Shown here: in pieces, positions 649 to 31,460 of the stretch | Position numbering within the stretch: the first letter of the stretch is position 1 | How the letters are laid out: every line of letters starts with the position of its first letter | NCBI GenBank assembly: GCA_945643635.1 | Contig: CALZFC010000134.1 | Span: 226,501-290,500, forward strand | DNA from: Allodiplogaster sudhausi | Taxonomy: Eukaryota; Nematoda; Chromadorea; Rhabditida; Diplogasteridae | Direction of reading: 5' to 3' | DNA: 64,000 nucleotides | Translations under genes and position numbers: made by a program | Notes under the pieces: model-generated | The model's database searches: none | What the model was told of the DNA's origin: nothing | What the model saw: the letters and a program-made list of their open reading frames with translations, nothing else

Positions 649-727
649 ACCCGTCATGAGATTAAAGGGACGAAACGGGTCAATGTTTCTGAATGTATCA
701 GGTTCTCATCTGATGAGTCCCGCCTGA
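649..727 (+). ncRNA. Permuted hammerhead-like ribozyme motif, copy 1
   Basis: Read 5' to 3': ACCCG (649-653), TC, predicted cleavage after 655, ATGAGA (656-661), TTAAA, GGGAC (667-671), GAAA (672-675), CGGGT (676-680), 17-nt linker, TCAGG (698-702), TCTCAT (704-709), CTGATGA (710-716), GTCCC (717-721), CCTGA (723-727). Stem I is ATGAGA:TCTCAT, stem II is GTCCC:GGGAC, stem III is ACCCG:CGGGT, and an extra stem IV is TCAGG:CCTGA. All invariant hammerhead core bases are present, but the three strands occur in the order UH-strand, GAAA-strand, CTGATGA-strand, which makes the fold pseudoknotted. Activity is inferred from the core bases and pairing only. Confidence 0.6.
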
Positions 728-1230: not shown

Positions 1231-1309
1231 ACCCGTCATGAGATTAAAGGGACGAAACGGGTCAACGTTTCTGAATGTATCAGGTTCTCATCTGATGAGT
1301 CCCGCCTGA
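1231..1309 (+). ncRNA. Permuted hammerhead-like ribozyme motif, copy 2
   Basis: The paired segments are identical to copy 1: ACCCG 1231-1235, cleavage position after 1237, ATGAGA 1238-1243, GGGAC 1249-1253, GAAA 1254-1257, CGGGT 1258-1262, TCAGG 1280-1284, TCTCAT 1286-1291, CTGATGA 1292-1298, GTCCC 1299-1303, CCTGA 1305-1309. Only the linker differs, by one base (CAACG versus CAATG). Because it follows copy 1 by 582 bp, a conventionally ordered hammerhead could also form from the GAAA strand of copy 1 with the other two strands of copy 2. Confidence 0.6.
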
Positions 1310-1706
1310 AGAAATATTATGATTAAGAATGCTATCAGTGCAATATTATAATGTGTGTGAATATTATTAACAAGGTTCGCTTTATGTTCCTTCATATCAT
1401 TATTTTGAATGAAGTTCAACTGAATGACTGATGAATATATCTCATTTATTTTAAATATTATAAATCAATAAAGATCAAACGACCTTTATTAATTATGAAT
1501 GATCGACGATTTTTGCTCCGTATTACGTGAATATTTTGGAGATCAATCGGTGTTCTTCCATATAAAGAATGATTGAAGTATTCTGACAATATTAATGATC
1601 GGATATGAATTGTGGATAAGAACATTTTTACTGTTCACCATTCCGTTGAAAATTATTAGAGCATGATGTATACTGAATGATTGAACTTCAAGTGCCGTCA
1701 AAGATA

Positions 1707-1785
1707 CAATTGCATCAGATTAAAGGGACGAAACGGGTTAATTGTTTGCAATGTACCAGGTTCTGATCTGATGAGTCCCGCCTGG
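1707..1785 (+). ncRNA. Permuted hammerhead-like motif, copy 3, cleavage strand degenerate
   Basis: Stem I is kept by a compensatory double change: ATCAGA (1714-1719) pairs with TCTGAT (1762-1767). Stem II GGGAC:GTCCC (1725-1729, 1775-1779), GAAA (1730-1733) and CTGATGA (1768-1774) are intact. Stem IV is CCAGG:CCTGG (1756-1760, 1781-1785), a T-A to C-G change relative to copies 1 and 2. The strand carrying the cleavage site has lost CCCGTC and reads ATTGC, so stem III and the U before the cleavage base are missing. This copy is probably not catalytic; its surviving pairing suggests that the fold itself was selected before decay. Confidence 0.5.
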
Positions 1786-1789
1786 AGAA

Positions 1790-2325
1790 AAATATCAATA
1801 AAACTGTCATTATCATATGCAAGCTTATAACTTGTTATTGTGAGCTCTCAGCTATGAATGAATGAAGTGGAATTGATTATGGAAGGAATTGATATTCTAT
1901 TCAATTTGAATAAATAATTCTGCCTGTTAGAGAAATATGAATAATGAATATAATCGGTGTGCTATTATTCGTTGTTTGTATTTATGTTTTGTTGCGCCCA
2001 TTTTATTGCTATGACATACATATGTGCATACACTTATGATCTGGCATTCTGCTAATTGTTAAAGCATACAGACGACACTTTTGACATGCTTAACTGAGAG
2101 TGTATCTGCTCTGTCTGATGTGCTATCAGCAAAGTTTTCTTTAGTGCCTGTGTGCAAATGAGGTGCAGAAGTGCCCGATCATGAATGTATGTACATATTT
2201 GCTTTATTGATGTGGCGTGGCGCATAAGATATGTGTAGCGGATAACAGACCAGTGAACTATTTAATTCACTTTTGCAGGAGGTAAGCAGTACTCTGGTGG
2301 CAGTGACCTGACCCTTTCTTCTCAG
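1790..2325 (+). other. AT-rich 5' leader of the Helitron-type ORF
   Basis: No convincing ORF is present. Just before the ORF, TTTTGCAG|GAG|GTAAGC (near 2272-2286) and a pyrimidine tract ending TTCTCAG directly before ATG 2326 look like splice signals, so the mRNA leader may be spliced. Confidence 0.4.
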
Positions 2326-5300
2326 ATGCGCTTGCGATTTCGACGTGATGGCGGGTTGGTCGATCTTCGGCCGGGCCGTCGTCGCGGAGAGGCCGCGCTG
2401 GGCTCAGAGGGAACCGGGGGAGTACCTCTGAGCCCATCCCGCTACTCCCCCTACTCAGAGCTGTTGTGGACAGGGTCTCTGATGTGTCAATGCTACTGTC
2501 CACAGGCTTCCCCAGTGCCTCAAACTGGTTTCAATGAAATAAATGTATCCGAAATGAAAAATTATGAACATGTTGAATGCAAGGATACATTGAATTGCCA
2601 AGTGCATAGCACATCCATCAAGAGAAGTGAAAGGCACGCAAAGATACATCAGAAATTTGAAAATGAAATGCTTCATCAAATAATGCCTCTAAGAGGAGGT
2701 GGCAATGGAAAAAAGGGCAAGTATGATGAATTGAAAGTTGCAAATGCCAGAATCCCAGCAGAAATTATTGACGAGTACTTCAAGGAGAAGCTGGTTGAGT
2801 GGTGCAAGGAAAAAGAGTCTGATGTTAATAAAGTCATTGTTGCATCAACCACCGCTTTTACACGCGCTCAAGTCGCAGCTGGACTAATGGAAGATGCACA
2901 ATTTGAGGGACTAAATGAAGAGAGCCGAATAAACTTTGAGAGACTTGTCATACCTGTTGTGTTTCAAAGGCACACGTTCTGCGCGTGCTTCATCAGAAGC
3001 GAAAATGTTGTGCATTTGTATGACTCAATGAAAGACAAAGAAATTGTTCATGGTTCAGTAACCGTGCAAAATGCAATTATTAAAGTCATTCAGTTTGTGA
3101 CACAGAATCAGGCAAATCCAACATTTCAATTCGATCAATTTGCAAAGAAGAAAAATGATCTCGATGACTGCATCGTCTATCTTATCAGTGCAATGAATAG
3201 TTCAATCACTAATTCAGACTATGACAGATTCGGTGTAAGTGCAAATGAGATAAAAAATCACATGTTTTCGATTCTGACCAAATCGAAAGGTACGCTCGAA
3301 AAGCGAAGGCCAATGCAAAATGTCGATATACTTCGTGAACTGCGAGATCATAGTGAGCAAATAAATACTGTCATTCTGGATGACTACATCAGAAAAATTA
3401 CTTCGACATACACTGAAGAGGATACAGTCTTCTCACTAAGCTCAATTTATGACCATTTTAACCATAATCAAGCAGCGCTTCGTAATGGAACTCTTAGACA
3501 GATGGAAGGAGAAGAAATTACTGCTGCATTTGCAAACATGAATGATTCAATCAGAAAAACGGCAACGAGAATATTATTTGCTGTTCACGATGCAACCAAG
3601 CAGCACTTCTGGTTTGCTGAGTATGAAAAGGAAAGTGGCATTGTGAATATTTATGATTCAATTAAAGGAGGTTATGTTCAGAAGAACTTCTCTCGCCATT
3701 TCATTGGCTTGGCTCTGCACGAATTGATAAAGTATGTCTACCCAAATGCACGAATGCCGATCTTCTGTTGGCCTTCAGCCGCACAACAACCAGACGGAAT
3801 AAACTGTGGAATATTCACAAGTTACTTTTACGAATGCGCTATGAAGAAAGTGCACATTCCTGATCAAACATTCAATTTCAATTTTAATGAATACAGAACA
3901 AAGATGATTCAAGTCCTAGAATCAGGAAACCAGCAGGAAGTGCGAAATGCCATTCCTAATGTAAAAAGTGATGAGTGGACGCAAGTGAAACCCAGAAGAA
4001 GCCAGAGATCAAAAAATGAAGGATTTAAAAAGCCTCGCACTCCGCCTTGGCGGAAAGATTCTTGGAAAAGAAAAGCTCTGACGCCAGACGTTATCCCAGA
4101 AGTTGAGATAACTAGGCCATACAATGTCCTTGAAGAGATAAATCTTGACGGTGACGTCTTCGCAGATGTGGAAGTACCGTTCAGTGAGATTCAAGATCCT
4201 CAGCGAAGATTGATGCAACGGACAGTGCAGAAAGCTTTCGAGAATATTGTCCAATTCTTTGACAGTGGAAATACAGTACTTTTGAACATCTCAGCTTCCG
4301 AATCTCTGAGACATGCTGATGCCAATCACAAGTATAAGACTGTCCGATCATTTATTCACAAGTATTCAGCTGAGAAATGCAAAGTTATGGAGAGAATGCT
4401 TCTCCCACTGGTTGATGATAAGAGGAACGGACATTTCCTCTTTGCACTGTTTGAAAAGAGTAGTAACACTCTCACGATATATGATTCTCTTTGGAGTACT
4501 GCAAAGACATATGAGTGGAATCGAACATCAGTTCGTAGACTAATTGCTCACGTTATGAAGATAAAGACTGAGATAACCGTAAAGACGGCCACCTGTACAG
4601 AACAGAAACGTGAAGTTGACTCTGGTGTTTACGCAATTCGATTTGCCATTAATGCTTGCAGTAATGGAAAAGACACTGAAGATGACTTTGATGCATCTGA
4701 ATTCCGGAAGGAAATCTTTGAATTGGTTATGCATTGCGAAAGGTTCAAAACCAATTTAACGAAGAATAATAAGATTGTTAAAAGCAGTGTATCTGCAAAA
4801 GCTAAAACGCCACAACTGAATAGTGAGCCAGTTGAACAAACAAGACTTGATTTTGCAAAGATCAAGTCGCAATTGAAGTCGAAACAAAAAACACCAGATG
4901 TTGAGGTCGTGGAGGCATGCATTCTTAAGATTGGTCAAGATGCACCCACAACAAAAGCAGTAATTTGTGAGTACTCTCTAATAAAGGGAACTACAAGTAT
5001 GGAACTTGACGCAATTTGCATGAAATCCTATAAAGGAGAGATAAATGAATATCAGCTTGCTCAATTTGTAATAGTTGATGATAAACGCAAGACGCATTTC
5101 TTCTACTCCGATTTCACTTGGAGCACTGGAATTATGAGAATTTGTGACTCAGATAAATATGCATCACATGATGATTATTCGGACGTAATCGATAACGTGC
5201 GAAAGTTTGTTTCCAGAATAAAAGCAACGAATGCATTTGAGTGTGTTCTGGAAGAATGCAAACAGCAAAGCAAGGGTGCGAAGCACTGCTCATGGTTTTT

Positions 5301-8300
5301 CGCATGCAAATATGCAGAGTGTGCTCTTAAACATCTTGAGTTTACACTCGATGGCTTCAATTGGATGTTGTATAAATCGACTCTATTGTCGATGTTCATA
5401 GAGGATGATGAACGCACAAAGAAAGAATCAGTCATGAGATCTGACAAACGGAAATCCCTTGAATCCTCAAGTACAGTTAATGAAAGCAGCCCGCGTATTA
5501 CGCGTAGCAGAAGTCCTCTTTCTGCTGAAAGGCAATTTAATTGTGTTAACAATATGACACCTATCAAGGTTGCATTGCCTTGTACGAACAAGGAATCCTT
5601 AACCAAGCGAATTGTTCACACACCAAAACGAAAAAGCGATTTCACAGATATTGCATGTTCTCTTAAGAAACGAAGAGAAGGTATTTATGAAAGCCCATCT
5701 GTTTTGCTTTCACAAATGAGCGATTTGCACATCATTAAAACCCCGGCGAGTCCAACTCCCCTGAGAAAGAGGAAAGCTGAAAATGAAGTGGCACCCTCAC
5801 CATCAACCATTTTATGTGGTATGAATCATTTGAATGTTAGTACTCCAAAGCGAGTTTCAACGAGACAGCCGAAAAAACTGTTTGTGCCCTATCAGGCTCA
5901 ATTTTCCACGGCCAAGTCCGATGCTCCAATCGCAAAGATGTCATACGACAGTTTAAAAAAGCTGGACGACAACCAGTGGTTGAATGATGAAGTTGTGCAC
6001 TGTGCAATACAAGCAATTTGCTACAACAAGAATATCTTTCTGATTGATCCGGTTCAGTATGAAAGATACTGTACTAATCTAGAAAGCATGCAAAAGTTGA
6101 GAACAAACAACTTCAGCAATTATGACATGATTATGTTTCCATTGGTCAATGATAACCACTTTATGCTAACTGTCATAGACATGTTGTCACCACTTTTTGT
6201 CATGGTTTACGACTCGCTGAATAAAGTAGACCGGAATGAATTATACAGAATTCAAAATTGTATTAATCACTTAACGGGCCTTCGAGTAATGGCCGTTCCG
6301 TCAGGTGATGATCAGACAACTCTGCAAAGTGATGGTTGTAATTGTGGTCCAATTACTATATTCCACGCACTGCAAATTGTTAATAATCGGCCAACAGTTG
6401 TGCCGCATTTTGATGCTGCTTCATACAGAAAGCAGTTGAAGCACTATTTGATGACATGCAAGTTGATTAAGATACTAGGAGGAAACGAAGATAATGTTGC
6501 TCCTGATTGCACTCCTAGATCCAGAAGATCGAGCTCACGGTCTTCCATCGGCTCTGTAGCATCAATGAGAAGTGTAGCATCATCTACAATGTCAGTTCGC
6601 TCAAATGAAAGCGACTATTCAAGTGAATCACTTGAAATGCTCAAAACGTTTGGCTGGACACATCAGCCTCGAAGAGGCAAACCATGTGATGTTTCAGTAT
6701 CAGCAATATCATTATACGCTGCGTATGCCGGAGGACAATTTGATAGCTCTATTATTGAAGCAATGTTAAAAGTTCTGGTAGCCGAGTCAAAGCAAAGCAT
6801 TTTTGTGTTTTCGCATTCTGTAATGATGGATTGCATTGCAAGGAGCACAGCTAGTGAGATCAAATCTAATATGAAGCAGAAGATTATATTCGTTCCTTTG
6901 AAGGAACAAAACGAATGGATCCTTGGAGTGATTGAGATGAAGCCAGAAATTACGATTCGACTCTACGACAAAGAGCGGAGAGATAATGTTATGGCACAAC
7001 TATCTAACTTTGTGGAGATAACATTTGGCAAGCCAGTAGTATTGGACAAGAAGAGGTCCAATCAAGTATGCAAATACTCTACTCCAGAAGAGTCTGCTTC
7101 TGCTCTATTCTTTAATGCGGAACAATACTTGTGCGAATTGTCAAAGCAGATAAAGAAGAGATTTGACGAGTTTAAATCTGCAGTTTACCGCGAAATAATC
7201 ACCAAGATGCTGATTGACTCAAAGATGGTCAGAATATGTGCCCAAAGTAATACTGCGGCCAAGGAAGTTGTGCAGATAATTCCATTCAAGTGTGATGATT
7301 TAAGCGATAGAGATATTTCTCTGCTATCGGAAGAACATGATCAGTTAAGTGATCTAATTATCAGCAAATTTGCGATCGCTCTCAATTCAAATAAGCGATA
7401 TGTTGCCTTACCACTTGATGCTTATGAAATCAATGGAAGACTTGAAGGCTTTAATGCCGGAAGAAGACAGGGCATATTAATGCATGTCAAGAAAACATCT
7501 GATGAATATGCATTGGTGGTTATTAAGGACCGAAAAGCATGTGTCTATGATCCCTATATTCCAGCCGTTGGAAGCAAATTTTCTGAGAAAATTAAAGCAG
7601 TTGCATCGTACTACAATCGAAATAGAGCAAAGTGCGAACTGAAGAAAAAGTATCCAAAAATTAAAAGCCCGTTATCAACCGGAATTTTTGTCTGTGCATT
7701 AATGCACGCATTGTCAGTTGACAACATGGATATGCCTAAGAGTGTTGAATCCAAGGCTGTGAAGAGAATTATTTGTCAAGCTCTCGAACTAAACAAAGAC
7801 ATTTCTGTCTCTCAAGACATAACTGATACAGCAGTTATTGATAATGAAAGCGGAATTGTGACAACCCCACAGTCGGGTACAAAGGAATATAAAAGAAAGC
7901 TTATGCAACAACTTCGAAAAGCTCAACCGCAACTCATGCGTGCCCAGATTAACTACAGTAATCTACCGGAGCCTTATGTGCTTCCGCCACAGGTCAAATG
8001 TGTACACTGCCAAGCATGGCGATGGCCCGGAGATCCAGATTCCATTTGCTGCAAAGGCGGCCAGGTTAAGATTCAAGATGACTTTCCACTATTCGTGGAC
8101 ATTGAAGAAATGAGAAAAATAAAGGAGTACATCCTTTCACCGGCTGGAAAGGCTACCTATGACACTGTGAGAATGATAAATTCTCCCTTATCATTTGTTT
8201 GCGCCATTATGAACACGAAAAAGAAATCAGAGTTTCCCAAAGGAGGCCCAGTACCCTTGGTTCTTAATGGGAGAATAGAGGCAACAATTGTGAGCCCTCA

Positions 8301-11300
8301 AGATAGCACCTCGAAGTCAAATCCTTCGTTTGTTTCACTCATCATTTGCAAAGATTCTGCTCGAGCAGAAAAGGCTTGTGCCGACTTTATGAAGAAATAC
8401 AATGTAAAGTACAACCTTGATATTTTCATGCGAGTTCGAAATGTAATACAGGAACACAATCATCTCGCGAAATGCTATATGCGCCTGGAAGAAGTGATCC
8501 AGGAAGAGAAAAAGAAAGCTGAGGCACGGAATAGAAAGCCCAACCATGTTATGTTGAACATTCTTGATAGAGAGGAGGCTCTGAAGCAGTTCTCACCGAA
8601 CATTCAAGCTGGAGGAAAAATGATTCATGTGAATCCTCCCATTCATCCTGGCAGATTGAATGAGCCACAAGGCGACAAGTTTATGTCAGCCATATACGTC
8701 TACCCAGATGGACAGTGCCCAAGCCACGAAGATTTGAATCGTGGAGTAAGAATTTTCCAGAAATCCTCTTGGACAAATAAGAAGCTTGTGCACTTTAGCC
8801 AGCTGTGGGATGCCATGAGTTATACACTTTTGTTGCCACGCGGAAACCGCACTTATAAGCTTGGAATGCCAAACTTTACAACGATGAGCAAGAGAAATCC
8901 CCTTCCTGGGGTAAAGCCACGCGAGTTCCTCTCGCGATCTGAATATTACAATTTCACGTTCGCAGATAAAGGTAATACACCCGAAGAAAGAAGAATGCAT
9001 TGGTGCAGATACTGGGGTATGCTTACCCAGCAATTCCAACTAGGCGTATATTTGAGAATTCAAGCAGATCGACTGGCTGCCATAAAGAGAGAACGCGAGG
9101 AGCAAGTCAATAAGTTGACCAAAGTGTCAGCAAATGCAAAGTATGTTCAGATGAAGCTTGAAGAAAAGGGATACGCACTTGGCAACTATGTTACACTCCC
9201 TGAAAGCTTTTATGGAGGTCCGAAATACTTCCGAAGACTGTACTACCAATGTGTAGCACTTTCAAAGAGATATGGCAAACCATCTCGATTCATAACATTT
9301 ACCGGAAATCCAGAATGGCCGGAGATTACGGAAATTCTGAAACTCATCTCACCTAATATGACATGGCATGACATTGCCGATGATGTTTGCCGAATCTTTT
9401 GGCTCAAGGCAAAGGAATTTTTGAAAGACGTCACTGAACGTGGTGTGCTTGGAGAAGTTGTTGCCAACGTCTGGAACGTTGAATATCAACAGAGAGGAAT
9501 GCCTCATATTCACTTGTTGATCTGGTTTAAGAAAGGTCACGTTGACACTCCAGAGATCATTGACCAGACAATCAGTGCTGAGATTCCGCCTGAACCGGCC
9601 CAGGATGACCCTTATTATGAGGAGAAAATGAGACATCGTGAACTCATTAAAAAGTGTATGATTCATGGTCCCTGTGAAGGTAAACTTGATATGACATGCC
9701 GTAAGAGGCGACCTAATGCATTCTTATGCGCGAAAAGTTACCCAAAAGGCTATCGCGATGAAACAGAAATGATTGAAAACGATTATCCGTTGTATAGACG
9801 GAGAGATAACGGAGCAAACATTGTCTACTCAAAAGGAAAGAATGTACGAGTTGCAACGAATCGACATGTTGTTCCACACAATCCATATCTCTTGATGAAG
9901 TATGGTTGTCACATTAATGTAGAGGCCTCTACGAGTATCTCTACATTCAAGTACATTTTCAAGTACATTTTCAAGGGCGTTGACCTTCTTGCCTTGGAAA
10001 TTGATGACATGGAAGAAGATGAGCTGAATGCCAATGGCATTGTACTCAGAAATGAATACCAGAAAAAAGATGGAAAAGTCAGGCAATTGGTTGACCTTGA
10101 CGAGACAAAAACTTTCCAGAATGCGAGAAGCATATCCTCAATTGAGGCTTCATACTGCAGACTTGGCCTGCCAAGGCATGGTATATCTCATTGCGTTACA
10201 GCATTGTACATTCATCTGGAAGGCGAGCAACATATGGTTGTCAAAGCTGATGATACTGCTGCCCAGAGAGAACAAAGAGCTGAGAGAGCCATCTCCAGAT
10301 TCATGGCTTTCATGGAGCTTAATACACGTGACGAAGATGCAAGAAAATTGACATATCTTGAAGTTGAAGAAAGATACAGATGGGATCAGAAGGCAAAGAT
10401 GTACAAGCCATATGTGCGTACTGGCCAGATTGAACGTAATATTGCGTACCTATCTCCCATTAGCCCCCGAAACAGGGAACTTTACGGACTGCACTGTCTG
10501 GTGAGAAGCCTTACAGGCTACACTTGCTTTGCTGATTTGCTTAAATCAGAAGATGGAAACACTACATATGCAACATTTGATGAGTCTGCTCGGGCAAGAG
10601 GCCTTTTAAGAGATGACAAGGAATGGGACGAATGTCTTAACCTTGCAAGCGAGACTATACCGAATAATAGAGCATTCCTGAGACTTTTCTGCGTCATTCT
10701 GATGAATTGTCAGTCACCCAGTCCTGCGGAACTCTTTGAAAAGTACAAGGAACACATGCTTGACCGCGATAAGCAGAAAAAGTATTCTGAAGAAGAGAAA
10801 GAGCAGCGAGTCCTCAGGCACATACAGTCGATAATAAGGCACTCTAACATGACGCTCAAGCAGTTTGGATTGCCTGAGCTTATAAGGAATGAAGCTCTTG
10901 AGCGAAAGTTCATGTCTGAAGACAAGAGAGAGGCCGAAAAGAGAGCAGATGAAATGCAACCCACGCTAAATGACGGCCAGAAGGCAATTTCGGAGCAAAT
11001 CATTGCTGCCATCTCTGACACAAGTGCCAAAAAGCGTTGCTTCTTTGTGACTGGAAGTGGAGGTTGTGGAAAGACATACCTCTACGAGTACTTAATCAAT
11101 TGGTGCATTGCACACGAAAAGGTTGTTTTACCTGTTGCCTCAACCGGCATTGCAGCAACTCTATTGAAGAATGGTACGACCGCTCACAGTGGTTTTGGAA
11201 TTCCGCTCGAATATGATGAGCTGGACAAAACAAACCTTGACATCACCTCAGACAAGGGCCAGGTTTTGAGACAAGTTGAAGTCATCATTTGGGATGAGGC

Positions 11301-12756
11301 CCCAATGCAGTCGAATGCAATCTTGAGCTTTGTTGACAGAACAATGAGGGTCGCTGCACCCAGAGACCAGAAAGATAGACCATTTGGTGGACGTGTCGTT
11401 CTCCTCGGTGGAGACTGGAAGCAAATTTTGCCTGTTATACCCAGTGCTCGAGATAGACAAATCTTGAATTACACATTGAACAATGCACCTGTTTACGACA
11501 AGTTTGAGCAGTGCAAACTGACTGTCAACATGAGGGTCGACAAGGACCAGCAAATATTTCTCAAATATCAGACTGAAGTTGGAGAAGGAACTGCAAAATT
11601 TGACGGATTGCACATTCGTGTACCTGAAAGAATGCTATGCGCCGATGATGACGCACTAATACAATCCGTGTATCCGGAGGAAGTCCGCTGCAACGGTGAA
11701 GAGATGAGCAAAAGAGCAATCCTCGCAGTTAGAAATGATGCAGTAATCAAACTAAATGAGAAGATTATGAACTTGCTACCTGGAAAAGCAGAAGAGTTTA
11801 TAGGAATCACTGAGATTCCTGAAGAAGCAGAGCATATGGGCATGCCAGTAGATTTGATCTCAACCTTGGAGGCGATGACGCCCAATGGAATGCCCGCTCA
11901 TAAGTTAGTTTTGAAACCACAAACACCCGTTATGCTGTTAAGGAACATTGACATTGAGAATAAGTTGTGCAATGGCACTAAACTTGTGTTCTTGAACGCA
12001 GTGAAAGTAAACTCTGCTGACAGAAACGTCATTCTGCTGAGATGCAGAAATGTGACTGTGAATCCACCAGAAGAGGTATTCCTGCCGAGAATCGTACTGA
12101 ATTATCTCGATCGTAACAGTGGTGTACAGTTCACCCGAAGACAGTTCCCGATAAGGGCGTGCTTTGCTTGCACGATTAACAAGAGTCAAGGCCAGACATT
12201 GGCAAGAGTTGGACTCGATCTGAGAACTCCGACATTTTCTCACGGCCACTTCTATGTGGCCATCTCGAGAGTTAAAACTGAGGCACATCTCAAACTTTTG
12301 ATTCCAAAAGAATTTATCACAGAAGATAAAGTGAACGGAAAGCATGCCGTTGTCAGAAATATTGTCTATCGAGACCTTTTCAAGACGGTCAATTGTGAGA
12401 TCACAAAAAGTCCTCCTGTACTGGCTGAGGAACCAGATGTTGATCCATTTGAGGGCTTGAATCTTGATGACGATGAAGGGGCCGAGAATGACCCCGAAGA
12501 GCATGAAGAAGACATTGAGCAAGTCCAGGAGATTGATCAAGAACAGCTCGAAAAAGATCTTGATGATTTTACTTATCAGTTGCAGCAAGAGATTGCCGCA
12601 AAGCAGAATGGCGAAGTAGCCGAGAAAAAGATAACGGATAAGAATGCCGCTGTTAACGATGATATTGTACAGGCAATGCCAGAAATCGATGACGATGTTC
12701 ACTTCTTTAGTGATGATGAAGAAGGCAACCTTGAGTATGTTGTATCCTCCGAATAA
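2326..12756 (+). CDS. Helitron Rep-helicase (RepHel) with tandem Ulp1/C48-like domains
   Basis: A single 3476-residue ORF. Residues about 130-1800 hold up to seven Ulp1-like units. Unit 1 has H216, D233, C282; unit 2 has H427, D444, QQ near 487, C494 in DGINCG; unit 3 has H703 and YDS but Ser near 766 where Cys is expected; unit 4 has H924, D, Q and C988; unit 5 has WLNDE, H1278, YDS, Q1334 and C1340 in GCNCG; units 6 and 7 (about 1440-1800) look decayed. A Cys-rich CxxCxAxxW...CC segment starts near 1892, as in other Helitrons. The Rep domain shows HUH as PHIH at 2393-2396 and tyrosines Y2543 and Y2547 in KYIFKYIFKG. The PIF1-type helicase has Walker A GSGGCGKT (2910-2917), WDEAP (D2990) and AISR (3312-3315). 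The tail is acidic. The protein is expected to nick, unwind and strand-transfer transposon DNA in the nucleus. The true start is uncertain (ATG 2326 or a later Met); the first 50 codons are markedly GC-rich. Confidence 0.9.
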   Translation: MRLRFRRDGGLVDLRPGRRRGEAALGSEGTGGVPLSPSRYSPYSELLWTGSLMCQCYCPQASPVPQTGFNEINVSEMKNYEHVECKDTLNCQVHSTSIKRSERHAKIHQKFENEMLHQIMPLRGGGNGKKGKYDELKVANARIPAEIIDEYFKEKLVEWCKEKESDVNKVIVASTTAFTRAQVAAGLMEDAQFEGLNEESRINFERLVIPVVFQRHTFCACFIRSENVVHLYDSMKDKEIVHGSVTVQNAIIKVIQFVTQNQANPTFQFDQFAKKKNDLDDCIVYLISAMNSSITNSDYDRFGVSANEIKNHMFSILTKSKGTLEKRRPMQNVDILRELRDHSEQINTVILDDYIRKITSTYTEEDTVFSLSSIYDHFNHNQAALRNGTLRQMEGEEITAAFANMNDSIRKTATRILFAVHDATKQHFWFAEYEKESGIVNIYDSIKGGYVQKNFSRHFIGLALHELIKYVYPNARMPIFCWPSAAQQPDGINCGIFTSYFYECAMKKVHIPDQTFNFNFNEYRTKMIQVLESGNQQEVRNAIPNVKSDEWTQVKPRRSQRSKNEGFKKPRTPPWRKDSWKRKALTPDVIPEVEITRPYNVLEEINLDGDVFADVEVPFSEIQDPQRRLMQRTVQKAFENIVQFFDSGNTVLLNISASESLRHADANHKYKTVRSFIHKYSAEKCKVMERMLLPLVDDKRNGHFLFALFEKSSNTLTIYDSLWSTAKTYEWNRTSVRRLIAHVMKIKTEITVKTATCTEQKREVDSGVYAIRFAINACSNGKDTEDDFDASEFRKEIFELVMHCERFKTNLTKNNKIVKSSVSAKAKTPQLNSEPVEQTRLDFAKIKSQLKSKQKTPDVEVVEACILKIGQDAPTTKAVICEYSLIKGTTSMELDAICMKSYKGEINEYQLAQFVIVDDKRKTHFFYSDFTWSTGIMRICDSDKYASHDDYSDVIDNVRKFVSRIKATNAFECVLEECKQQSKGAKHCSWFFACKYAECALKHLEFTLDGFNWMLYKSTLLSMFIEDDERTKKESVMRSDKRKSLESSSTVNESSPRITRSRSPLSAERQFNCVNNMTPIKVALPCTNKESLTKRIVHTPKRKSDFTDIACSLKKRREGIYESPSVLLSQMSDLHIIKTPASPTPLRKRKAENEVAPSPSTILCGMNHLNVSTPKRVSTRQPKKLFVPYQAQFSTAKSDAPIAKMSYDSLKKLDDNQWLNDEVVHCAIQAICYNKNIFLIDPVQYERYCTNLESMQKLRTNNFSNYDMIMFPLVNDNHFMLTVIDMLSPLFVMVYDSLNKVDRNELYRIQNCINHLTGLRVMAVPSGDDQTTLQSDGCNCGPITIFHALQIVNNRPTVVPHFDAASYRKQLKHYLMTCKLIKILGGNEDNVAPDCTPRSRRSSSRSSIGSVASMRSVASSTMSVRSNESDYSSESLEMLKTFGWTHQPRRGKPCDVSVSAISLYAAYAGGQFDSSIIEAMLKVLVAESKQSIFVFSHSVMMDCIARSTASEIKSNMKQKIIFVPLKEQNEWILGVIEMKPEITIRLYDKERRDNVMAQLSNFVEITFGKPVVLDKKRSNQVCKYSTPEESASALFFNAEQYLCELSKQIKKRFDEFKSAVYREIITKMLIDSKMVRICAQSNTAAKEVVQIIPFKCDDLSDRDISLLSEEHDQLSDLIISKFAIALNSNKRYVALPLDAYEINGRLEGFNAGRRQGILMHVKKTSDEYALVVIKDRKACVYDPYIPAVGSKFSEKIKAVASYYNRNRAKCELKKKYPKIKSPLSTGIFVCALMHALSVDNMDMPKSVESKAVKRIICQALELNKDISVSQDITDTAVIDNESGIVTTPQSGTKEYKRKLMQQLRKAQPQLMRAQINYSNLPEPYVLPPQVKCVHCQAWRWPGDPDSICCKGGQVKIQDDFPLFVDIEEMRKIKEYILSPAGKATYDTVRMINSPLSFVCAIMNTKKKSEFPKGGPVPLVLNGRIEATIVSPQDSTSKSNPSFVSLIICKDSARAEKACADFMKKYNVKYNLDIFMRVRNVIQEHNHLAKCYMRLEEVIQEEKKKAEARNRKPNHVMLNILDREEALKQFSPNIQAGGKMIHVNPPIHPGRLNEPQGDKFMSAIYVYPDGQCPSHEDLNRGVRIFQKSSWTNKKLVHFSQLWDAMSYTLLLPRGNRTYKLGMPNFTTMSKRNPLPGVKPREFLSRSEYYNFTFADKGNTPEERRMHWCRYWGMLTQQFQLGVYLRIQADRLAAIKREREEQVNKLTKVSANAKYVQMKLEEKGYALGNYVTLPESFYGGPKYFRRLYYQCVALSKRYGKPSRFITFTGNPEWPEITEILKLISPNMTWHDIADDVCRIFWLKAKEFLKDVTERGVLGEVVANVWNVEYQQRGMPHIHLLIWFKKGHVDTPEIIDQTISAEIPPEPAQDDPYYEEKMRHRELIKKCMIHGPCEGKLDMTCRKRRPNAFLCAKSYPKGYRDETEMIENDYPLYRRRDNGANIVYSKGKNVRVATNRHVVPHNPYLLMKYGCHINVEASTSISTFKYIFKYIFKGVDLLALEIDDMEEDELNANGIVLRNEYQKKDGKVRQLVDLDETKTFQNARSISSIEASYCRLGLPRHGISHCVTALYIHLEGEQHMVVKADDTAAQREQRAERAISRFMAFMELNTRDEDARKLTYLEVEERYRWDQKAKMYKPYVRTGQIERNIAYLSPISPRNRELYGLHCLVRSLTGYTCFADLLKSEDGNTTYATFDESARARGLLRDDKEWDECLNLASETIPNNRAFLRLFCVILMNCQSPSPAELFEKYKEHMLDRDKQKKYSEEEKEQRVLRHIQSIIRHSNMTLKQFGLPELIRNEALERKFMSEDKREAEKRADEMQPTLNDGQKAISEQIIAAISDTSAKKRCFFVTGSGGCGKTYLYEYLINWCIAHEKVVLPVASTGIAATLLKNGTTAHSGFGIPLEYDELDKTNLDITSDKGQVLRQVEVIIWDEAPMQSNAILSFVDRTMRVAAPRDQKDRPFGGRVVLLGGDWKQILPVIPSARDRQILNYTLNNAPVYDKFEQCKLTVNMRVDKDQQIFLKYQTEVGEGTAKFDGLHIRVPERMLCADDDALIQSVYPEEVRCNGEEMSKRAILAVRNDAVIKLNEKIMNLLPGKAEEFIGITEIPEEAEHMGMPVDLISTLEAMTPNGMPAHKLVLKPQTPVMLLRNIDIENKLCNGTKLVFLNAVKVNSADRNVILLRCRNVTVNPPEEVFLPRIVLNYLDRNSGVQFTRRQFPIRACFACTINKSQGQTLARVGLDLRTPTFSHGHFYVAISRVKTEAHLKLLIPKEFITEDKVNGKHAVVRNIVYRDLFKTVNCEITKSPPVLAEEPDVDPFEGLNLDDDEGAENDPEEHEEDIEQVQEIDQEQLEKDLDDFTYQLQQEIAAKQNGEVAEKKITDKNAAVNDDIVQAMPEIDDDVHFFSDDEEGNLEYVVSSE

Positions 12757-12899
12757 ATAAGAAGAAGAAAATTAAATGCGTTGTTTGAATATGAAGTCTA
12801 ACTGCTTAATTAGCAGGAAGTTGTGAAATTCTTGAAAGAAGCAAATGACGGGTAACTGCGTTGTTTGAATGAGAACTAACATTTTCTCAAAAAAAAAAA
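12757..12899 (+). other. 3' non-coding segment of the Helitron-type element
   Basis: AT-rich, with the phrase GCGTTGTTTGAAT occurring twice (near 12778 and 12859) and a run of A at about 12890-12899. No ORF is seen. Confidence 0.5.
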
Positions 12900-12983
12900 T
12901 CCCGTCGCGAGATTAAAGGGGCGAAACGGGTTTATATGTATGCATATTGCCAGGTTCTCGCCTGATGAGTTCCCCGCCTGGCA
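12900..12983 (+). ncRNA. Permuted hammerhead-like ribozyme motif, copy 4 (3' side of RepHel)
   Basis: CCCG 12901-12904, TC, predicted cleavage after 12906, GCGAGA 12907-12912, TTAAA, GGGGC 12918-12922, GAAA 12923-12926, CGGG 12927-12930, TGCCAGG 12948-12954, TCTCGC 12956-12961, CTGATGA 12962-12968, GTTCC 12969-12973, CCTGGCA 12977-12983. Stem I has changed to GCGAGA:TCTCGC with both strands altered together, stem IV is lengthened to 7 bp, and stem II pairs as G-C, two U-G wobbles and two C-G. All core bases are conserved. It lies 144 bp after the RepHel stop codon. Confidence 0.6.
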
Positions 12984-12994
12984 CAATTGTTTTC

Positions 12995-13179
12995 GCGAAC
13001 ATTTTCACACATTTATAGCCCACCTACCGACCCGGGTTCGGAGTCGCGCGGGGGCAAACCCTTTTGCGCGTTTTAATTCGACCCCCAATGCAAAGTTCTT
13101 AATGCTAGGACATAGCGGAGACTCCAAGGGAGATAATGGGCAAAGATACTGAAACCAGGTCCCCCCATAGCTCCGCTAG
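12995..13179 (+). mobile_element. 3' fragment of an array-type Helitron unit
   Basis: The text from ACCGACCCGGGTTCGGAG onward aligns by eye with the distal third of the array units (compare 23757 and 27820 onward). It ends at CCGCTAG, which corresponds to an internal CTAG of the full units (GCCGCTAGAACAG) and not to their normal hairpin end. The giant element appears to have replaced or entered the 5' part of this unit. Confidence 0.6.
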
Positions 13180-14532
13180 TTATTATATACAAGTCGACTG
13201 TTATTTATTGACCGGTATAGCGCGGAGAGGTGCTGTGGGCGGTGGGGGTGAGATATGGGGAAGCGGTTTATTGGGGAACATGTAAAGTTTCCGGACTACA
13301 AGAATATGTGGGTTTCAAAAAATTGGGTTCGATATTGGCGCCGGCGCGGGCGGCCAAACTTTGGTCCGAGGTGACTTTGATTTGGGGCGGTTCGCGAATT
13401 TGACGGGCTGCAACTTTTTTTCTGGTGGTCGTACAGAAATGTAAAAAATAGTGGCGGATAGCCCGTTCAAAAATGAATATGATTCCTGGAGTTGAGATCA
13501 TTTCGAGTTTTGGTAGATCAGTGAGAGGCCGCCGCGCAAACCATACCTTTTTGGGGTACTTTTTGAGAGGGTATTTGCCCCTTTTCTCGGAATCTACAAA
13601 GTCCGCTTTTGATTAAACTGACTGCGATTGTAGAGTTTTTCACGGCGCATCTTCTAATACCATAATTATCAACTTTTGGACACTAGAAGTTGTAGATATT
13701 ATCGATTGAATGGTCAAATTTTTTTGTTAGGAGCGAACCTTCTAAAATACATATCTTTATGAATAGGCAAGGTAGAGGAATGAGAGTTTCAGAATCATGC
13801 AGAGTTTCACGAGAGCTTCAATATGAGTATACGTACGTTTGGCTGGCTGTTCATTAAAGTGCCCTGCCAGGGCCGTAAAATGTGAAATTTTTGGAACGCA
13901 TTTTGGGCCTCCGTTTCTTCTCGGTAGTTAAAGGTTGTGCCACACATGATATATCATTCTGTAGCTCTCGAGATGGCGAACAACTTTCTCATACAAAACA
14001 TTTTGATATTTCGATGTTTTTGATCTACTTTCGGGGTCAGAATGTTCAGGCCACTATTTCGGCCTTAGCTATCACTGACACTTTTTGGCGCATATTTTAT
14101 TTATTGTAGAGCCAAAAATTAGCTATCGAATGATAGGTAGATCATGGGATTTGATCCAGGCATATTCGAGATATGAATTATTTTGTGGCTTTTTGGTACA
14201 TTTTCAGTGCACGTCGAAAGTCATGGGACGCAAGTTCGAATCCGCGCGCGCACAAACTCTTTTGCGCGCTTTTGTATGGCTCCTGATGAAATTATAAGAG
14301 TGCTAACATAGACTAAGGACTCCAAGCTTTCTAATGAGCGGAAATTAAAAGACCTAGGATGTCCATTAACGCCGCTAGAACAGACTTTTGTCCTTTTTAA
14401 GCCAACTAACAACCCTTAGAGCCAACTAACGACCCAACTTACTATCTTTTTATCGGGAAATGGCCTCCGGGGCGATAGCCCCGGTGGCCACTGACCGGGC
14501 CAAAGGCCCGTAGCGTGACAAAGTCACGCTAG
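13180..14532 (+). mobile_element. Helitron-like unit 1
   Basis: 1353 bp. The 5' end lacks the TC and starts TTATTATATACAAGTCGAC, joined to an internal CTAG of the preceding fragment. The 3' end has all three hairpins (CCGGGGC-GATA-GCCCCGG, GGGCC-AAA-GGCCC, GCGTGAC-AAA-GTCACGC) and CTAG. Confidence 0.75.
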
Positions 14533-15890
14533 TCTATTATTATCTAAAAGTCGACTGTAATTTATTGACCGGTATAGCGCCGAGAGGTATTACGGGCGGT
14601 GGGAGTGAGATACGGGGAAGCGGGATTTTGCATGTTGTAGATTATCCCTTGGGCTACCAGAATATGTGGGTTTCAAAAATTCAGGGTTGGCGCCGGCGCC
14701 GGCGCGGGCGGCCAAACTTTGGTCCGAGGTGACTTTGATTTCGGGCGGTTCGCGACTTTGACGGGCTGCAACTTTTTCTCTGGTGGTCGTACAGAAATGT
14801 AAAAAATAGTGGCGGATAGCCCGTTCAAAAATGAATATGATTCCTGGAGTTGAGATCATTTCGAGTTTTGGTAGATCAGTGAGAGGCCGCCGCGCAAACC
14901 ATACCTTTTTGGGGTACTTTTTGAGAGGGTATTTGCCCCTTTTCTCGGAATCTACAAAGTCCGCTTTTGATTAAACTGACTGCGATTGTAGAGTTTTTGA
15001 CGGGATTTCAGAAAATGGTCGAACTATCGACTTTTGGACACTAGAAGTTGTAGATATTATCGATTGAAGGGTCAAATTTATTTGTTAGGAGCGAACCTTC
15101 TAAAATTCATATGTTTATGAATAGGGATCGTAGCGGGATGAGAGTTTCAAAATCATGCAGATTTTCACGAGAGCTTCAATATGAGTATACATAGGTTAGG
15201 CTGGGTTATCATTAAAGTGCCCTACCAGGGCCGTGAATTGTCAAATTTTTGGAGCGCACTTTGGGCCTCCGTTTCTTCGCTGTAGTTAAAGATGTTGCCA
15301 CATGTTATATACCATTCTATAGCTCTCGAGAAGGCGAACAACTTTCTCATACAAAACTTTTTCATATATTGACGTTTTTGATCTTCTTTTGGGTTCAGAA
15401 TGTTCAGGCCACTATTTCGGCCTTAGCTATCACTGATACTTTTTGGCGCATATTTTTGTCGTCGTAGAGCCAAAAATTAGCTATCGAATGATAGGTAGAT
15501 CATGGGATTTGATCCAGGCATATTCGAGATATGAATTATTTTGTGGCTTTTTGGTACATTTTCAGTGCACGTCGAAACTCATGGGTCGCAGGTTCGAATC
15601 CGCGCGTGCGCAAACTCTTTTGCACGCTTTTATATGACTCCTGAGTATGTTAAAAGAGTGATATCATATAGTAAAGACTCCAAGCTTTCTAATGAGCTTA
15701 AATTCAGAGGCCCAGATAGTCCAGTAGCGCCGCTAGAACAGACTTTTGACCCTTTAGAGCCAAATTTTAACCCTTAGAGCCAACTATAAACCCTTGGATA
15801 CATTTTTACATCGGGAAATGGCCTCCGGGGCGATAGCCCCGGTGGCCATTGACCGGGCCAAAGGCCCGTAGCGTGACAAAGTCACGCTAG
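14533..15890 (+). mobile_element. Helitron-like unit 2
   Basis: 1358 bp, from TCTATTATTATCTAAAAG to CTAG, with the full three-hairpin 3' end. Confidence 0.8.
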
Positions 15891-17247
15891 TCTAGAGTTA
15901 TATAAAAGTCGACTGTTATTTATTGACTGGTGTAGCGCGGAGAGGTGGTGTGGGCGGTGGGGGTGAGATACGGAGAAGCGGTTTTTTGCCGATTATGTAA
16001 AAGTTTCCGGACTACAAGAATATGTGGGTTTCAAAAAATTGGGTTCCATATTGGCGCCGGCGCGGGCGGCCAAACTTTGGTCCGAGGCGAGTTGGATTTG
16101 GGCACTTTGCCGACTTTGAGAGGTTGTATCTCTCTTTCGGGTAGAGATATGAGGATGAAAAATATACTTGTAGATAGATCGTTCAAAAATTAATATGATT
16201 CCTGGAGTTGAGATCATTTCGCGCTTTGGTAGATCAGTACGAGGCCGGCGCGCAAACCATACGTTTTTGGGGTACTTTTTTAGGCTCATTCTTCTCATTT
16301 ACTCGAAATCTACAAATTCGCTTTTTGATCTAACTGACTCCGATTGTAGAGTTTTTGACGGGCTTTCTTTTAATACTAAATTCATCGACTTTTGGGCACT
16401 AGGTGTATGAGATATTATCGATTGAAGGGTCAAATTTTTTTGTTAGGAGCGAACCTTCTAAAATTCATATCTTTATGAATAGGGAAGTTAGAGGCATGAG
16501 AGTTTCAGAATCATGCAGAGTTTAACGAGAGCTTCAATATGAGTATACATACATTAGGCTGGGTCATCATTACAGTGCCCTGCCAGGGCCGTGAAGTGTC
16601 AAATTTTTGGAGCGCACTTTGAGCCTCCGTTTCTTCTCGGTAATTAAGGGTTAGGCCAAACATTATATATCAATCGGTAGCTCTCGTGAAGGCGAACAAC
16701 TTTCTCATACAAAACATTTTGATATTTCGATGTTTTTGATCTACTTTTGGGGTCAGAAGGTTCAGGTCACTATTTCGGCCTTAGCTATCACTAACACTTT
16801 TTGGCGCATATTTTTTTTATTGTAGAGCCTAACATTAGCTATCGAATGATAGGTAGATCATGGGATTTGATCCAGGCATATTCGAGATATGAATTATTTT
16901 GTGGCTTTTTGGTACATTTTCAGTGCACGTCGAAAGTCATGAGTCGCAGGTTCGAATCCGCGCGCGCGCAAACTCTTTTGCGCGCTTTTATATGACTCCT
17001 GATGAAATTAAAAGAGTGAAAATATGGACAAAAGACTCCAAGCTTTCTAATGAGCTTAAATTCAAAGGCCCAGATAGTCCAGTAGCGCCGCTAGAATAGA
17101 CTTTTGACCCTTTAGAGCCAAATTTATCCCTTAGAGCCAACTAACGACCCAACTTACTATCTGTTTATCGGGAAATGGCCTCCGGGGCGATAGCCCCGGT
17201 GGCCATTGACCGGGCCAAAGGCCCGTAGCGTGACAAAGTCACGCTAG
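15891..17247 (+). mobile_element. Helitron-like unit 3
   Basis: 1357 bp, from TCTAGAGTTATATAAAAG to CTAG, with the full three-hairpin 3' end. Confidence 0.8.
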
Positions 17248-18623
17248 TCTACTATTATATAAAAGTCGACTGTAATTTATTTACGGGTATAGCGCGGAGA
17301 GGTGCTGTGGGCGCGGGGGTTGAGATACGGGGATGCGGTTTTTTGGGGAACATGTAAAAGTTTCCGGACTACAAGAATATATGGGTTTCAAAAAATTAGC
17401 GTCGGCGCCGGCGCCGGCGCGGGCGGCGGAAGTTGGCGCGGAGGCGAGTCAGATTTGGGGTGCTTCGCGACTTTGAGAGGCTGTATCTTTCTTTCGGGTA
17501 GAGATATGGGGATGAAAAAAATACTGGGAGATAGCCCGTCAAAAAATGAATATGATTCCTGAAGTTGAGACTGATTCGAGTTTTGGTAGATCAGTGGGAG
17601 CGCGGCGCGTTTTGACCCCATTTTTTGGCCGATTTTCGGCATGTAGTTAGGGTTTTTCTCGGAATCTACAAATTCGCTTTTTGATCTAACTGAATCCGAT
17701 TTTAGAGTTTTTGACGGCGCATCTTTTAATAGTAGAATTATCAACTTTTGGACACTAGAAATTGTAGATATTATCGATTGAAGGGTCAAATTTTTTTGTT
17801 AGGAGCGAACCTTCTAAAATACATATCTTTATGAATAGGGAAGGTAGAGGGATGAGACTTTGAGAATATTGAAGGACTTCAAGAGAGCTTCAATATGAGT
17901 ATACTCGTGTTTGTCTGGCTTTTCATTAAAGTGACCTGCCAGGGCCGTGAAGTGTCAAATTTTTGGAGCGCACTTTGGGCCTCCGTTTCTTCGCGGTAGT
18001 TAAAGATCTTGCCACATGTTATATACCATTCTGTAGCTCTCGCGAAGGCGAACAACTTTCTCATACAAAACATTTTGATATTTCGAAGTTTTTGATCTAC
18101 TTTTGAGGTCAGAAGGTTCAGGCCACTTTTTCGGCCTTAGCTATCACTGACACTTTTTGGCGCATATTTTTTTTATTGTAGAGCCTAAAATTAGCTATCG
18201 AATGATGGGTAGATCATGGGATTTGATCCAGGCATATTCGAGATATGAATTATTTTGTGGCTTTTTGGTACATTTTCAGTGCACGTCGTAAGTCATGGGT
18301 CGCAAGTTCGAATCCGCGCGCGCGCAAACTCTTTTGCGCGCTTTTGTATGACTTCTGATTAAATAAAAAGAATGCTAACATGGACAAAAGACTCCAGGCT
18401 TTCTAATGGGGGTAACTATATGCACCCAGGTCCTCCAGTAGCGCCGCTAGAGCAGACTTTTGTCCTTTTTAAGCCAACTAACGACCCTTAGAGCCAACAA
18501 ACAACGCATAGAGCCAACAAACAACCCTCAGAGTCAACCAACAGCAAACCAAGAACCCAACCAACAACCCTTGGACCCTACTGACAATGGCCAAAGGCCC
18601 GTAGCGTGACAAAGTCACGCTAG
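17248..18623 (+). mobile_element. Helitron-like unit 4
   Basis: 1376 bp, from TCTACTATTATATAAAAG. The first 3' hairpin is missing; instead there is a short AGCCAACAAACAAC-type tandem run before the last two hairpins and CTAG. Nearly identical to unit 7, 4089 bp downstream. Confidence 0.8.
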
Positions 18624-19978
18624 TCTACCCTTATATAAAAGTCGTCTGTACTTTATTGACGGGGATAGCGCCGAGAGGTGCTGTGGGCGGGAGAGTTGAG
18701 TTATGCGGTTGAAATTTTCAGGATTCATAGATTATCCCTTGGGCTACAAGGTAATATGGGGTTCAAAGGATTTGGTTTGGCGCCGGCGCCGGCGCGGGCG
18801 TCCAAACTCGGACAAGTGTGGAGTCGAGTTTTGGCTATTCTCCGATTTTGAGGATGTCTAACTTTTGTTTTAGGATAGATATTGCTATGAAAAAAATATG
18901 TATAGGTAGCCTGTTCAAAAATGAATATGATTCCTGGAGATGGGATTGATTGGTTCATTTGTAGATCACTGGGAGCTCGGCGCGTTTTGACCTGCTTTTT
19001 TGGCCCTTTTTTGGCATGTAGTTGCCCCTTTTCTCGAAACCTACAAAGCCGCTTTTTTGATTCTCTGACCGCGATTGTTCAGTTTTTGACGGCGCATCTT
19101 TTCGTACCAAATTCATCAACTTTTGCGCACTGGACGTATGAGATATTATCGATTGAAGGGTCAAAATGTTTTGTTAGGAGCGAAACTTCAAAAAATCAAA
19201 TCTCAAAAAGTAAGCAACCTACAGATATGGGACACACAAATTCTTGAAGGATTTCACTAGGGCTTCAATATGAGCCTACGCGAGTTTGGGTAGGTTTCCG
19301 AAAAAGTATCCTCAGGGGGTTTTGAAACGCAAAATTTTTCGGAGCAACTTTGCGCGGCCGTGTTTTCTCGGGGATTGAACATATCACTACATGTTATATA
19401 TCAAACTGTAGCTATCGTGAAGGCGAATAACGTTCTCATACCAATGTTTTTGATTAATTAATGTTTTGATCTACCTTTTGGTACGAGAATGTTTAGGCCA
19501 CTTTTTCGGCCTTAGCTATCACTGACACTTTTTGGCGCATATCATAATTCTAATAGAGCGAAAAATTAGCTATCGAATGATTGGTCAATCTTTGAAATTG
19601 ATTTAGGCATATTCGAGATATGAACCATTTTGTGGCTTTTTGGCCTATTTAGGCTGCACGACGAAAGTCATGGGTAGCAGGTTCGAAGTCGCGCGCGTGC
19701 AAACCCTTTTGCGCGTTTTTGTATGAATCCTGAGTATGTTAAAAGAGTGTTATCATATAGTAAAGACTCCAAGCTTTCTAATGAGCTTAAATTCAAAGGC
19801 CGAGATAGTCCAGTAGCGACGCTAGAACAGACTTTTGACCCTTTAGAGCCAAATTTTAACCCTTAGAGTCAAATAACAACCCATAGAGATAATTTATATC
19901 GGGAAATGGCCTCCGGGGCGATAGCCCCGGTGGCCATTGACCGGGCCAAAGGCCCGTAGCGTGACAAAGTCACGCTAG
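18624..19978 (+). mobile_element. Helitron-like unit 5
   Basis: 1355 bp, from TCTACCCTTATATAAAAG with GTCGTCTG in place of GTCGACTG. Its middle part is more diverged than in the other units. Full three-hairpin 3' end. Confidence 0.75.
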
Positions 19979-30815: not shown

Positions 30816-31460
30816 TCTACTATTATATAAAAGTCGACTGTTATTTATTTACCGGTATAGCGCCGAGAGGTATTACGGGCGGTGGGAGTGAGATACGGGG
30901 AAGCGGTTTTTTGGGGGTTGTTTAATAGTGTCTGTGCTACAAGAATATGTTGGTTACAAAAATTTAGCGTTGGCGCCGGCGCCGGCGTGAGCGTCGGAAG
31001 TTGGCGCGTAGGCGACTTCGATTTGGGCTCTTTGGCGACTTTGAGGGGCTGTATCTTTTTTCCTGGTAGAGATATGGGGATGAAAAAAATACTGGTAGAT
31101 AGATCGTCCAAAAATGAATATGATTCCTGGAGTTGAGATCATTTCGAGTTTTGGTAAATCAGTGGCAGCGCGGCGCGTTTTGACCCCATTTTTTGGCCGT
31201 TTTTCGGCATGTAGTTAGGGTTTTTCTCGGAATCTACAAAGTCCGCTTTTGATTAAACTGACTGTGATTGTAGAGTTTTTGACGGCGCATCTTTTAATAG
31301 TAGAATTATCAACTTTTGGACACTAGAAGTTGTAGATATTATCGATTGAAGGGTCAAATTTTTTTGTTAGGAGCGAACCTTCTAAAATTCATATCTTTAT
31401 GAATAGGGACGGTAGAGGGATGAGACTTTGAGAATATTGAAGCGTTTAGAAAGAGATTCA
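30816..31460 (+). mobile_element. Helitron-like unit 14, 3'-truncated
   Basis: Begins TCTACTATTATATAAAAG and follows the unit for about 640 bp, then homology ends near 31450-31470 inside the segment that elsewhere reads GAGCTTCAATATGAG. The break coincides with the stop codon of the minus-strand gene next to it. Confidence 0.75.

Follow-up and report, generated by a model that had tools for sequence, protein, structure and literature searches.

Within the first kilobase of the 64,000-nt stretch of Allodiplogaster sudhausi DNA analysed here (the window), the conserved strands of a hammerhead ribozyme are found together, in an order that differs from that of hammerhead types I-III. The locus therefore raises two questions: what kind of ribozyme these strands might form, and why they are found in a nematode chromosome. 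The initial annotation of this DNA proposed a self-cleaving RNA with a new topology. We have examined the motif, its further copies in the window and in the host genome, and the mobile element in which they lie. The first copy is as follows.

649 to 727, + strand: copy 1, a type-SGC hammerhead (direct reading and descriptor scan)

We term the three strands S (with the cleavage site), G (with GAAA) and C (with CTGATGA). Block S of copy 1 (649-661) was read directly as ACCCG (649-653), U654 C655 and the stem I strand ATGAGA (656-661). It is followed by the linker TTAAA (662-666) and by block G (667-680), made up of GGGAC (667-671), GAAA (672-675) and CGGGT (676-680). Beyond a spacer of 17 nt (681-697) lies block C (704-721), comprising the stem I partner TCTCAT (704-709), CTGATGA (710-716) and GTCCC (717-721). 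The strands TCAGG (698-702) and CCTGA (723-727) form an additional stem IV that encloses the CTGATGA strand. All stems are complete, with 6 bp in stem I, 5 bp in stem II, 5 bp in stem III plus a U-A pair beside the cleavage site, and 5 bp in stem IV. Cleavage is predicted after 655, the same site as that proposed in the initial annotation, and we agree with its reading of 649-727 as two hairpins joined through stems I and II. Further copies were found in the window on both sides of a long open reading frame (ORF).

1231 to 1309, + strand: copy 2, with the parts of copy 1 and equal to it at 78 of 79 positions
1714 to 1785, + strand: copy 3 (direct reading and descriptor scan)
12901 to 12983, + strand: copy 4, 3' of the ORF (direct reading and descriptor scan)
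12889 to 12899, + strand: a run of 11 A just 5' of copy 4 (sequence reading)

Direct reading bears out the core bases and stems I, II and III that had been claimed for copies 1 and 2. Cleavage of copy 2 is predicted after 1237. Copy 4 begins with CCCG of stem III (12901-12904), U12905 C12906 and the stem I strand GCGAGA (12907-12912). It continues with GGGGC (12918-12922), GAAA (12923-12926) and CGGG (12927-12930), and ends with the stem I partner (12956-12961), CTGATGA (12962-12968) and the stem II strand GTTCC (12969-12973), within a stem IV formed by 12948-12954 and 12977-12983. The sequences of stems I, II and IV differ from those of copies 1 and 2, yet they still pair. Its cleavage is predicted after 12906. 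Copy 3 has a stem I strand (1714-1719), GGGAC-GAAA-CGGGT (1725-1738), the stem I partner (1762-1767), CTGATGA (1768-1774), a stem II strand (1775-1779) and the stem IV partner (1781-1785). It retains stems I, II and IV and the core, and its stem I (ATCAGA/TCTGAT) carries a compensated change. It has neither a 5' strand for stem III nor the U that precedes the cleavage site, and is therefore probably inactive. Third copies at other genomic sites align with about 10 extra bases where copy 3 has its gap.

The block order of copies 1, 2 and 4 is S-G-C, the reverse cyclic order to that of hammerhead types I-III, and it is indeed one that no circular permutation can give, as the initial annotation had argued. 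Its claim of a new topology does not hold, since the main text of PMC10085705 (Eckert et al. 2023) already reports this arrangement, extra stem included, together with tests of it, under the name of type SGC, a non-circular permutation. Thus the permuted hammerhead core stands and the novelty of its topology falls; copy 4 and the setting of the motif in a Helitron, set out below, were missing from that account. Copies 1, 2 and 4 share with type-SGC RNAs the order, the junction core, stems with covariation, and stem IV.

Could such an arrangement be found by searching any sequence? We scanned for hammerhead blocks in any order within 120 nt, with stems I, II and III of at least 5, 4 and 4 bp. 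Three matches were obtained in the window (copies 1, 2 and 4), all SGC, and 150 first-order Markov windows of equal (dinucleotide) composition contained no match, whatever the order. At looser settings (4/3/3) 26 matches over all orders arose in the 150 Markov windows, including a single SGC; in the window these settings added two pairings for copy 3, both GCS. The GCS pairing for copy 3 was judged to be chance, because looser stems yield such matches in random sequence. When the scanner was applied to 47 pattern-matched viral contigs, the best match was GSC (type II) in 42 and CGS in two, with none in three and no SGC. This viral control indicates that the scanner detects ordinary orders, and a type II or other conventional hammerhead is ruled out for the present copies by their block order. 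Patterns in SGC order that fixed part of stem III selected another 108 prokaryote or viral places (14 viral and 94 prokaryote). These gave two weak SGC pairings, and none reached the 5/4/4 stem threshold. The specific core pattern had no match in viral contigs, and no SGC motif was found at 19 loci of helicase relatives in viral contigs. No Rfam hammerhead family matched within the window at gathering score, and the weak Rfam matches in 500-2300, in 1900-2700 and at three host-genome loci (L191, L183 and L175) included no hammerhead family.

Calculated folding of nested structures was unremarkable for copies 1-4 (z = -0.18, -1.27, -1.31 and -0.57), a method that is uninformative for pseudoknots. 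The nested minimum-energy folds of copies 1-3 lack the hammerhead, and only that of copy 4 contains hairpins III and IV. In copy 1 the four helices sum to -25.7 kcal/mol, compared with a nested minimum of -20.3, the sum omitting all loop and pseudoknot costs.

The nature of the element that carries these copies is given by the ORF between them. The features that define it are these.

573 to 1868 (limits approximate), + strand: 5' direct repeats of about 617 and 486 bp and a partial third, with one hammerhead copy each (repeat search and unit alignment)
2326 to 12756, + strand: Helitron ORF of 3476 aa with Peptidase_C48 (Ulp1), Helitron_like_N (Rep) and PIF1 helicase domains (ORF and domain search)
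12757 to 13023, + strand: 3' non-coding part (satellite similarity)

The ORF matches Helitron_like_N (1.9e-39) and PIF1 (2.1e-52), together with Pif1_2B and Peptidase_C48. A Rep (HUH) domain and a PIF1 helicase in a single ORF identify the element as a Helitron. On alignment with relatives, H336 and H338 of the Rep HUH/Tyr residues are invariant, and Y485 and Y489 nearly so. Fourteen relatives of the Rep-helicase were found, and the nine with an organism name comprise eight nematode proteins at 28-31% identity and one fungal protein. Elsewhere in the window, a methyltransferase-like ORF (52577-53206) has six matches, all nematode, at 29-37% identity. Both sets of relatives point to a nematode, or something close to one, as the probable host. 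No match to a reverse transcriptase, as expected of a Penelope-like element or retrozyme, was found in the ORF between the copies. Far downstream, at 59890-63793, there is a non-LTR retrotransposon-like ORF pair; its reverse transcriptase has at most 51% identity to database proteins, nearly all of which are environmental and unnamed.

Copies 1-3 therefore lie in 5' repeats before the Helitron ORF and copy 4 lies after it. The 3' end of the element is likely near 13019-13023, because similarity to a downstream satellite begins at 13024; a 5' end was not found. The satellite (13024-32000) consists of units of about 1.36 kb with a tRNA B-box-like GGTTCGAATCC. It lies directly 3' of many ends of this Helitron family, and also 5' of the ORF in some relatives. 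On the 5' side, TTCTTCTCAG stands immediately before the ATG of the ORF. When 12 loci were compared at this point, six aligned, with five exact (L250-L253 and L257) and one (L268) a one-base variant. The surrounding segment 2270-2326 is strongly conserved and has splice-like signals: CTTTTGCAG, GAG and GTAAGC, then TTCTTCTCAG. Over a wider region (1960-2668) that takes in the leader and the start of the ORF, DNA identity to loci L250-L253, L251 and L256 is 94-98%, and the proteins beyond are only about 50% identical, as if a 5' module had been exchanged between Helitron subfamilies.

Within the element the hammerhead is conserved beyond its surroundings. Repeat units 1 and 2 agree at 78 of 79 motif positions, compared with 289 of 406 aligned positions in the remainder (Fisher p = 2e-9, after exclusion of 133 gap columns that lie outside the motif). 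Comparison of the 5' region (480-2325) with the 3' region (12757-13700) by blastn gave the hammerhead motif as the sole similarity.

We then turn to the host genome, an assembly of 382 contigs with a total of 351.8 Mb. By DNA search, at least 40 places are similar to copy 1 and at least 47 to copy 4; all 87 places listed were read. A search with copy 3 added 40 more rows, many of which overlap the places of copies 1 and 4. The SGC descriptor (stems I, II and III of at least 5, 4 and 3 bp) is satisfied by 61 of the 87 places listed and failed by 26. Thirteen of the failures are one identical copy, on 12 contigs, with UUGACGA instead of CUGACGA. The others comprise six that share one stem II change, two in which the core is altered differently, a truncated copy, and four altered in stem I, II or III. 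The thirteen identical UUGACGA copies are 3' copies (L207-L212 and L233-L239), and several are some 13-30 kb from a contig end, which suggests one element spread by subtelomeric or segmental duplication. Some 3' ends (L191, L193-L196, L199 and L205) have two hammerhead copies about 145 bp apart, the first of which has an altered stem II in several cases.

The constraint on individual bases was assessed in 67 distinct genomic rows that were found by similarity, with no selection on core or stems. GAAA is unchanged in all 67 rows, and UC is unchanged in the 66 rows that have letters there. Of 402 cells at the six fixed sites of CUGANGA, three are changed. At N, the free position of the hammerhead core, 48 rows have T and 19 have C; PMC10085705 likewise writes the core as CUGAnGA. 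By comparison, the mean minor fraction is 0.325 outside the motif and 0.302 in the spacer between blocks G and C. These patterns are evidence of selection acting on the catalytic core, as judged from aligned sequences.

In the same 67 rows, paired cells number 396 of 397 in stem I, 327 of 334 in stem II and 289 of 328 in stem III, compared with 38-52% overall when stems I-III are slid. Covariation was examined in 54 distinct rows chosen by the descriptor with stems of at least 4/3/3, a choice that inflates pairing. Every cell of stem I pairs in these rows, and double-sided changes occur at three of its pairs, A-U being replaced by G-C in 21 rows, U-A by C-G in 21 and G-C by C-G in seven. The covariation score is 0.213, as against a shuffled mean of 0.137 (none of 500 as high) and at most 0.061 when slid. 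Two of five measures are not above shuffles, namely double-sided pairs (3 versus 3.6) and further pair types (10 versus 12.6). Variation in stem II is one-sided; 21 rows have G.U at two adjacent positions, which is compatible with RNA. There is little variation in stem III; 22 of the 54 rows lack its outermost pair. When the best of five registers is used for each row, stem IV reaches at least four pairs in 51 of 56 rows, and its pair 5 is mostly C-G, U-A or A-U. Its variable positions give 164 paired cells compared with a permuted mean of 137 (none of 2000 as high). The initial annotation had named a lack of covariation in further copies, together with a lack of cleavage, as grounds for abandoning the ribozyme; covariation is found in the host-genome copies, in stems I and IV. 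The sequences fall into classes according to where a copy lies in the element (copies 1/2, copy 3 or 3' copies), so few independent events lie behind these counts.

Are the copies regular parts of a Helitron family? For the best 30 of at least 47 3' places (loci of 2.2-3.1 kb), the C-terminal end of the ORF lies upstream in the same orientation in 30 of 30; in one of these, L195, the upstream part is the last 29 residues only. Three further SGC copies, about 185 bp apart, lie on the minus strand of that locus (1954-2411) beside the ORF remnant, and this is perhaps a non-autonomous derivative. There were 21 5' arrays among the matches listed, and the eight chosen all have the ORF downstream in the sense orientation. 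The two positions differ in the A runs within the 14 nt 5' of CCCGUC: the longest is at least 7 in 24 of 45 3' places tested and 1-3 in all 34 5' places tested.

Starting from the protein, 50 match rows were obtained (45 of 298 candidates scored), with identities to the Rep-helicase of the window falling into groups of about 92-100% and 57-75%. The full-length rows of the second group have 64-65% identity, except for one at 62-63%. For ten elements of the 64-65% group we read 1.1 kb past the Rep-helicase region. A complete sense SGC copy is present on the 3' side in seven, a GAAACGG remnant in one, and neither in two. A listed 5' array lies 8-13 kb upstream of five of the ten elements, four of which have a 3' copy. 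The other five were taken by protein alone: three are near-identical and have a 3' copy, one has the remnant and one has nothing. At the 5' ends of elements on C55, C136, C163, C115 and C4 no copy was found. The stretches on C55 and C4 are uninformative, because the first has an ORF start in the opposite orientation and the second lacks similarity to the element. The informative ones are the three near-identical elements (C136, C163 and C115), where a 5' copy is absent from about 3 kb before the ORF. Since the 3' copy is retained in seven of ten elements and the 5' copy is missing in these three, the 3' copy is the more constant.

The sequence, order, pairing, covariation, constraint on catalytic bases and association with the Helitron ORF together make it likely that copies 1, 2 and 4 are working type-SGC hammerheads, regular parts of a Helitron family that cut its transcripts; transcription, cleavage and a use in RNA processing are what we infer from this evidence. 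In the sense transcript hairpin III (containing the cleavage and GAAA strands) and hairpin IV (around CUGAUGA) would fold first, locally. Pairing between their loops would follow and give stems I and II, held side by side by the 5-nt linker and stem IV. The RNA would be cut after the UC of ACCCGUC in copies 1 and 2, or of CCCGUC in copy 4, removing the 5' leader and detaching the 3' tail. The RNAs released would be of 582 nt (656-1237) and 11,669 nt (1238-12906), the latter with the ORF, and hammerhead chemistry would leave 5'-OH and 2',3'-cyclic phosphate ends. A more specific proposal, which we put forward tentatively, is that the RNA ends of the family are made by its hammerheads, pseudoknotted and non-circularly permuted, on either side of the ORF. 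The 5' copies might yield an uncapped ORF RNA, possibly recapped by spliced-leader trans-splicing (using TTCTTCTCAG before the ATG as acceptor) or circularised by an RtcB-type ligase, and the 3' copy might act in place of ordinary polyadenylation. Against the reading of the copies as working ribozymes stand the 26 of 87 listed places that fail the descriptor, the broken copy 3, the competing nested folds of copies 1-3, the absence of a 5' copy in the three near-identical elements, and the two of five covariation measures at the level of shuffles.

The failing places, copy 3 and the missing 5' copies would also be expected if an ancestral Helitron had captured the motif and carried it since as a useless passenger, some copies of which may still cleave, and the 5' leader common to elements with diverged ORFs fits this too. 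We consider such relics unlikely, given that the core and stems are retained while the flanks differ, and that a copy occupies the equal 3' place in two subfamilies that are about 65% identical in protein. A signal acting in DNA deserves similar scrutiny. Hairpins III and IV might form in single-stranded DNA for recognition by Rep or for termination of rolling-circle replication, the resemblance to a hammerhead being a relic or incidental. Excerpts of PMC5714489 and PMC6431247 describe Helitrons with a hairpin near the 3' end, copy 4 is about 40 bp from the likely 3' end, and the 3' copy is the more constant. Yet it is exactly the hammerhead core that is near-invariant, with variation at its free position; stem II has adjacent G.U pairs; stems I and II are kept, though hairpins alone do not need them; and copies occur deep inside the element as well, in the 5' repeats. 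A purely DNA-level role thus seems to us improbable. A chance arrangement of common short motifs, which does arise at looser settings in the Markov windows (26 matches over all orders) and as the two weak SGC pairings among the 108 prokaryote or viral places, is scarcely credible in the face of no strict match in the 150 Markov windows, none of the 108 at 5/4/4, and constraint and covariation across the host genome.

The reading of the copies as working hammerheads of a Helitron family may be set beside known systems. As here, Helitrons with an Ulp1-type protease combine Rep-helicase and a cysteine protease domain in one long ORF. The hammerheads of Penelope-like elements, Terminons and retrozymes have conventional block orders. 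Those mobile elements resemble the present one in that their terminal or flanking repeats contain hammerheads (excerpts of PMC6431247 and PMC4918198), and they differ in being retroelements, whereas here a Helitron carries the SGC order. We found no report of hammerheads in Helitrons in the open-licence PMC literature, and excerpts of PMC4918198, PMC6431247, PMC12477314, PMC3414825, PMC8969392 and PMC10645062 that concern ribozymes and Helitrons contain no hammerhead in a Helitron. If the copies do make the RNA ends of the element, this would be a new use of ribozymes in Helitrons. It would add a DNA transposon to the retroelements that carry hammerheads, and raises the question of why RNA should be cut on either side of the gene in an element that moves as DNA.

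Type II hammerheads (GSC, in viral contigs) have the GAAA strand before the CUGAUGA strand with similar spacing, as here, but place the cleavage strand between the two. The closest relatives are the type-SGC RNAs (the HRIMA-1 motif and variants), for which the main text of PMC10085705 gives 583 predicted examples, five of them (SGC-1 to SGC-5) shown to cleave at the predicted site with observed rates of 0.007-0.13 per minute. In SGC-3 each of the four stems was confirmed, disruption stopping cleavage and compensation restoring it. By that description they share with our copies the S-G-C order, the CUGAnGA/GAAA/UH core, stems I-III, two pseudoknots, a short linker between stems I and II, and the extra stem joining the other sides of these. 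The linker is 5 nt here and typically 3 in those RNAs. The sources also differ: the RNAs of PMC10085705 come from metatranscriptomes, and none of them from the genome of a known organism except one type-GCS candidate, whereas the copies here are chromosomal and flank a transposon ORF on either side. Its main text makes no mention of helitron or transpos-. The topology is therefore already known, and what is new is the setting, that of type-SGC hammerheads recurring in a Helitron family of a eukaryotic genome. A type-SGC motif in a transposon may reveal where such motifs live and what they do, and if our reading is correct it provides a genomic source for RNAs so far known from metatranscriptomes. 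Because the motif is recurrent and multi-copy in one Helitron family, its role becomes testable in a defined element with its own protein.
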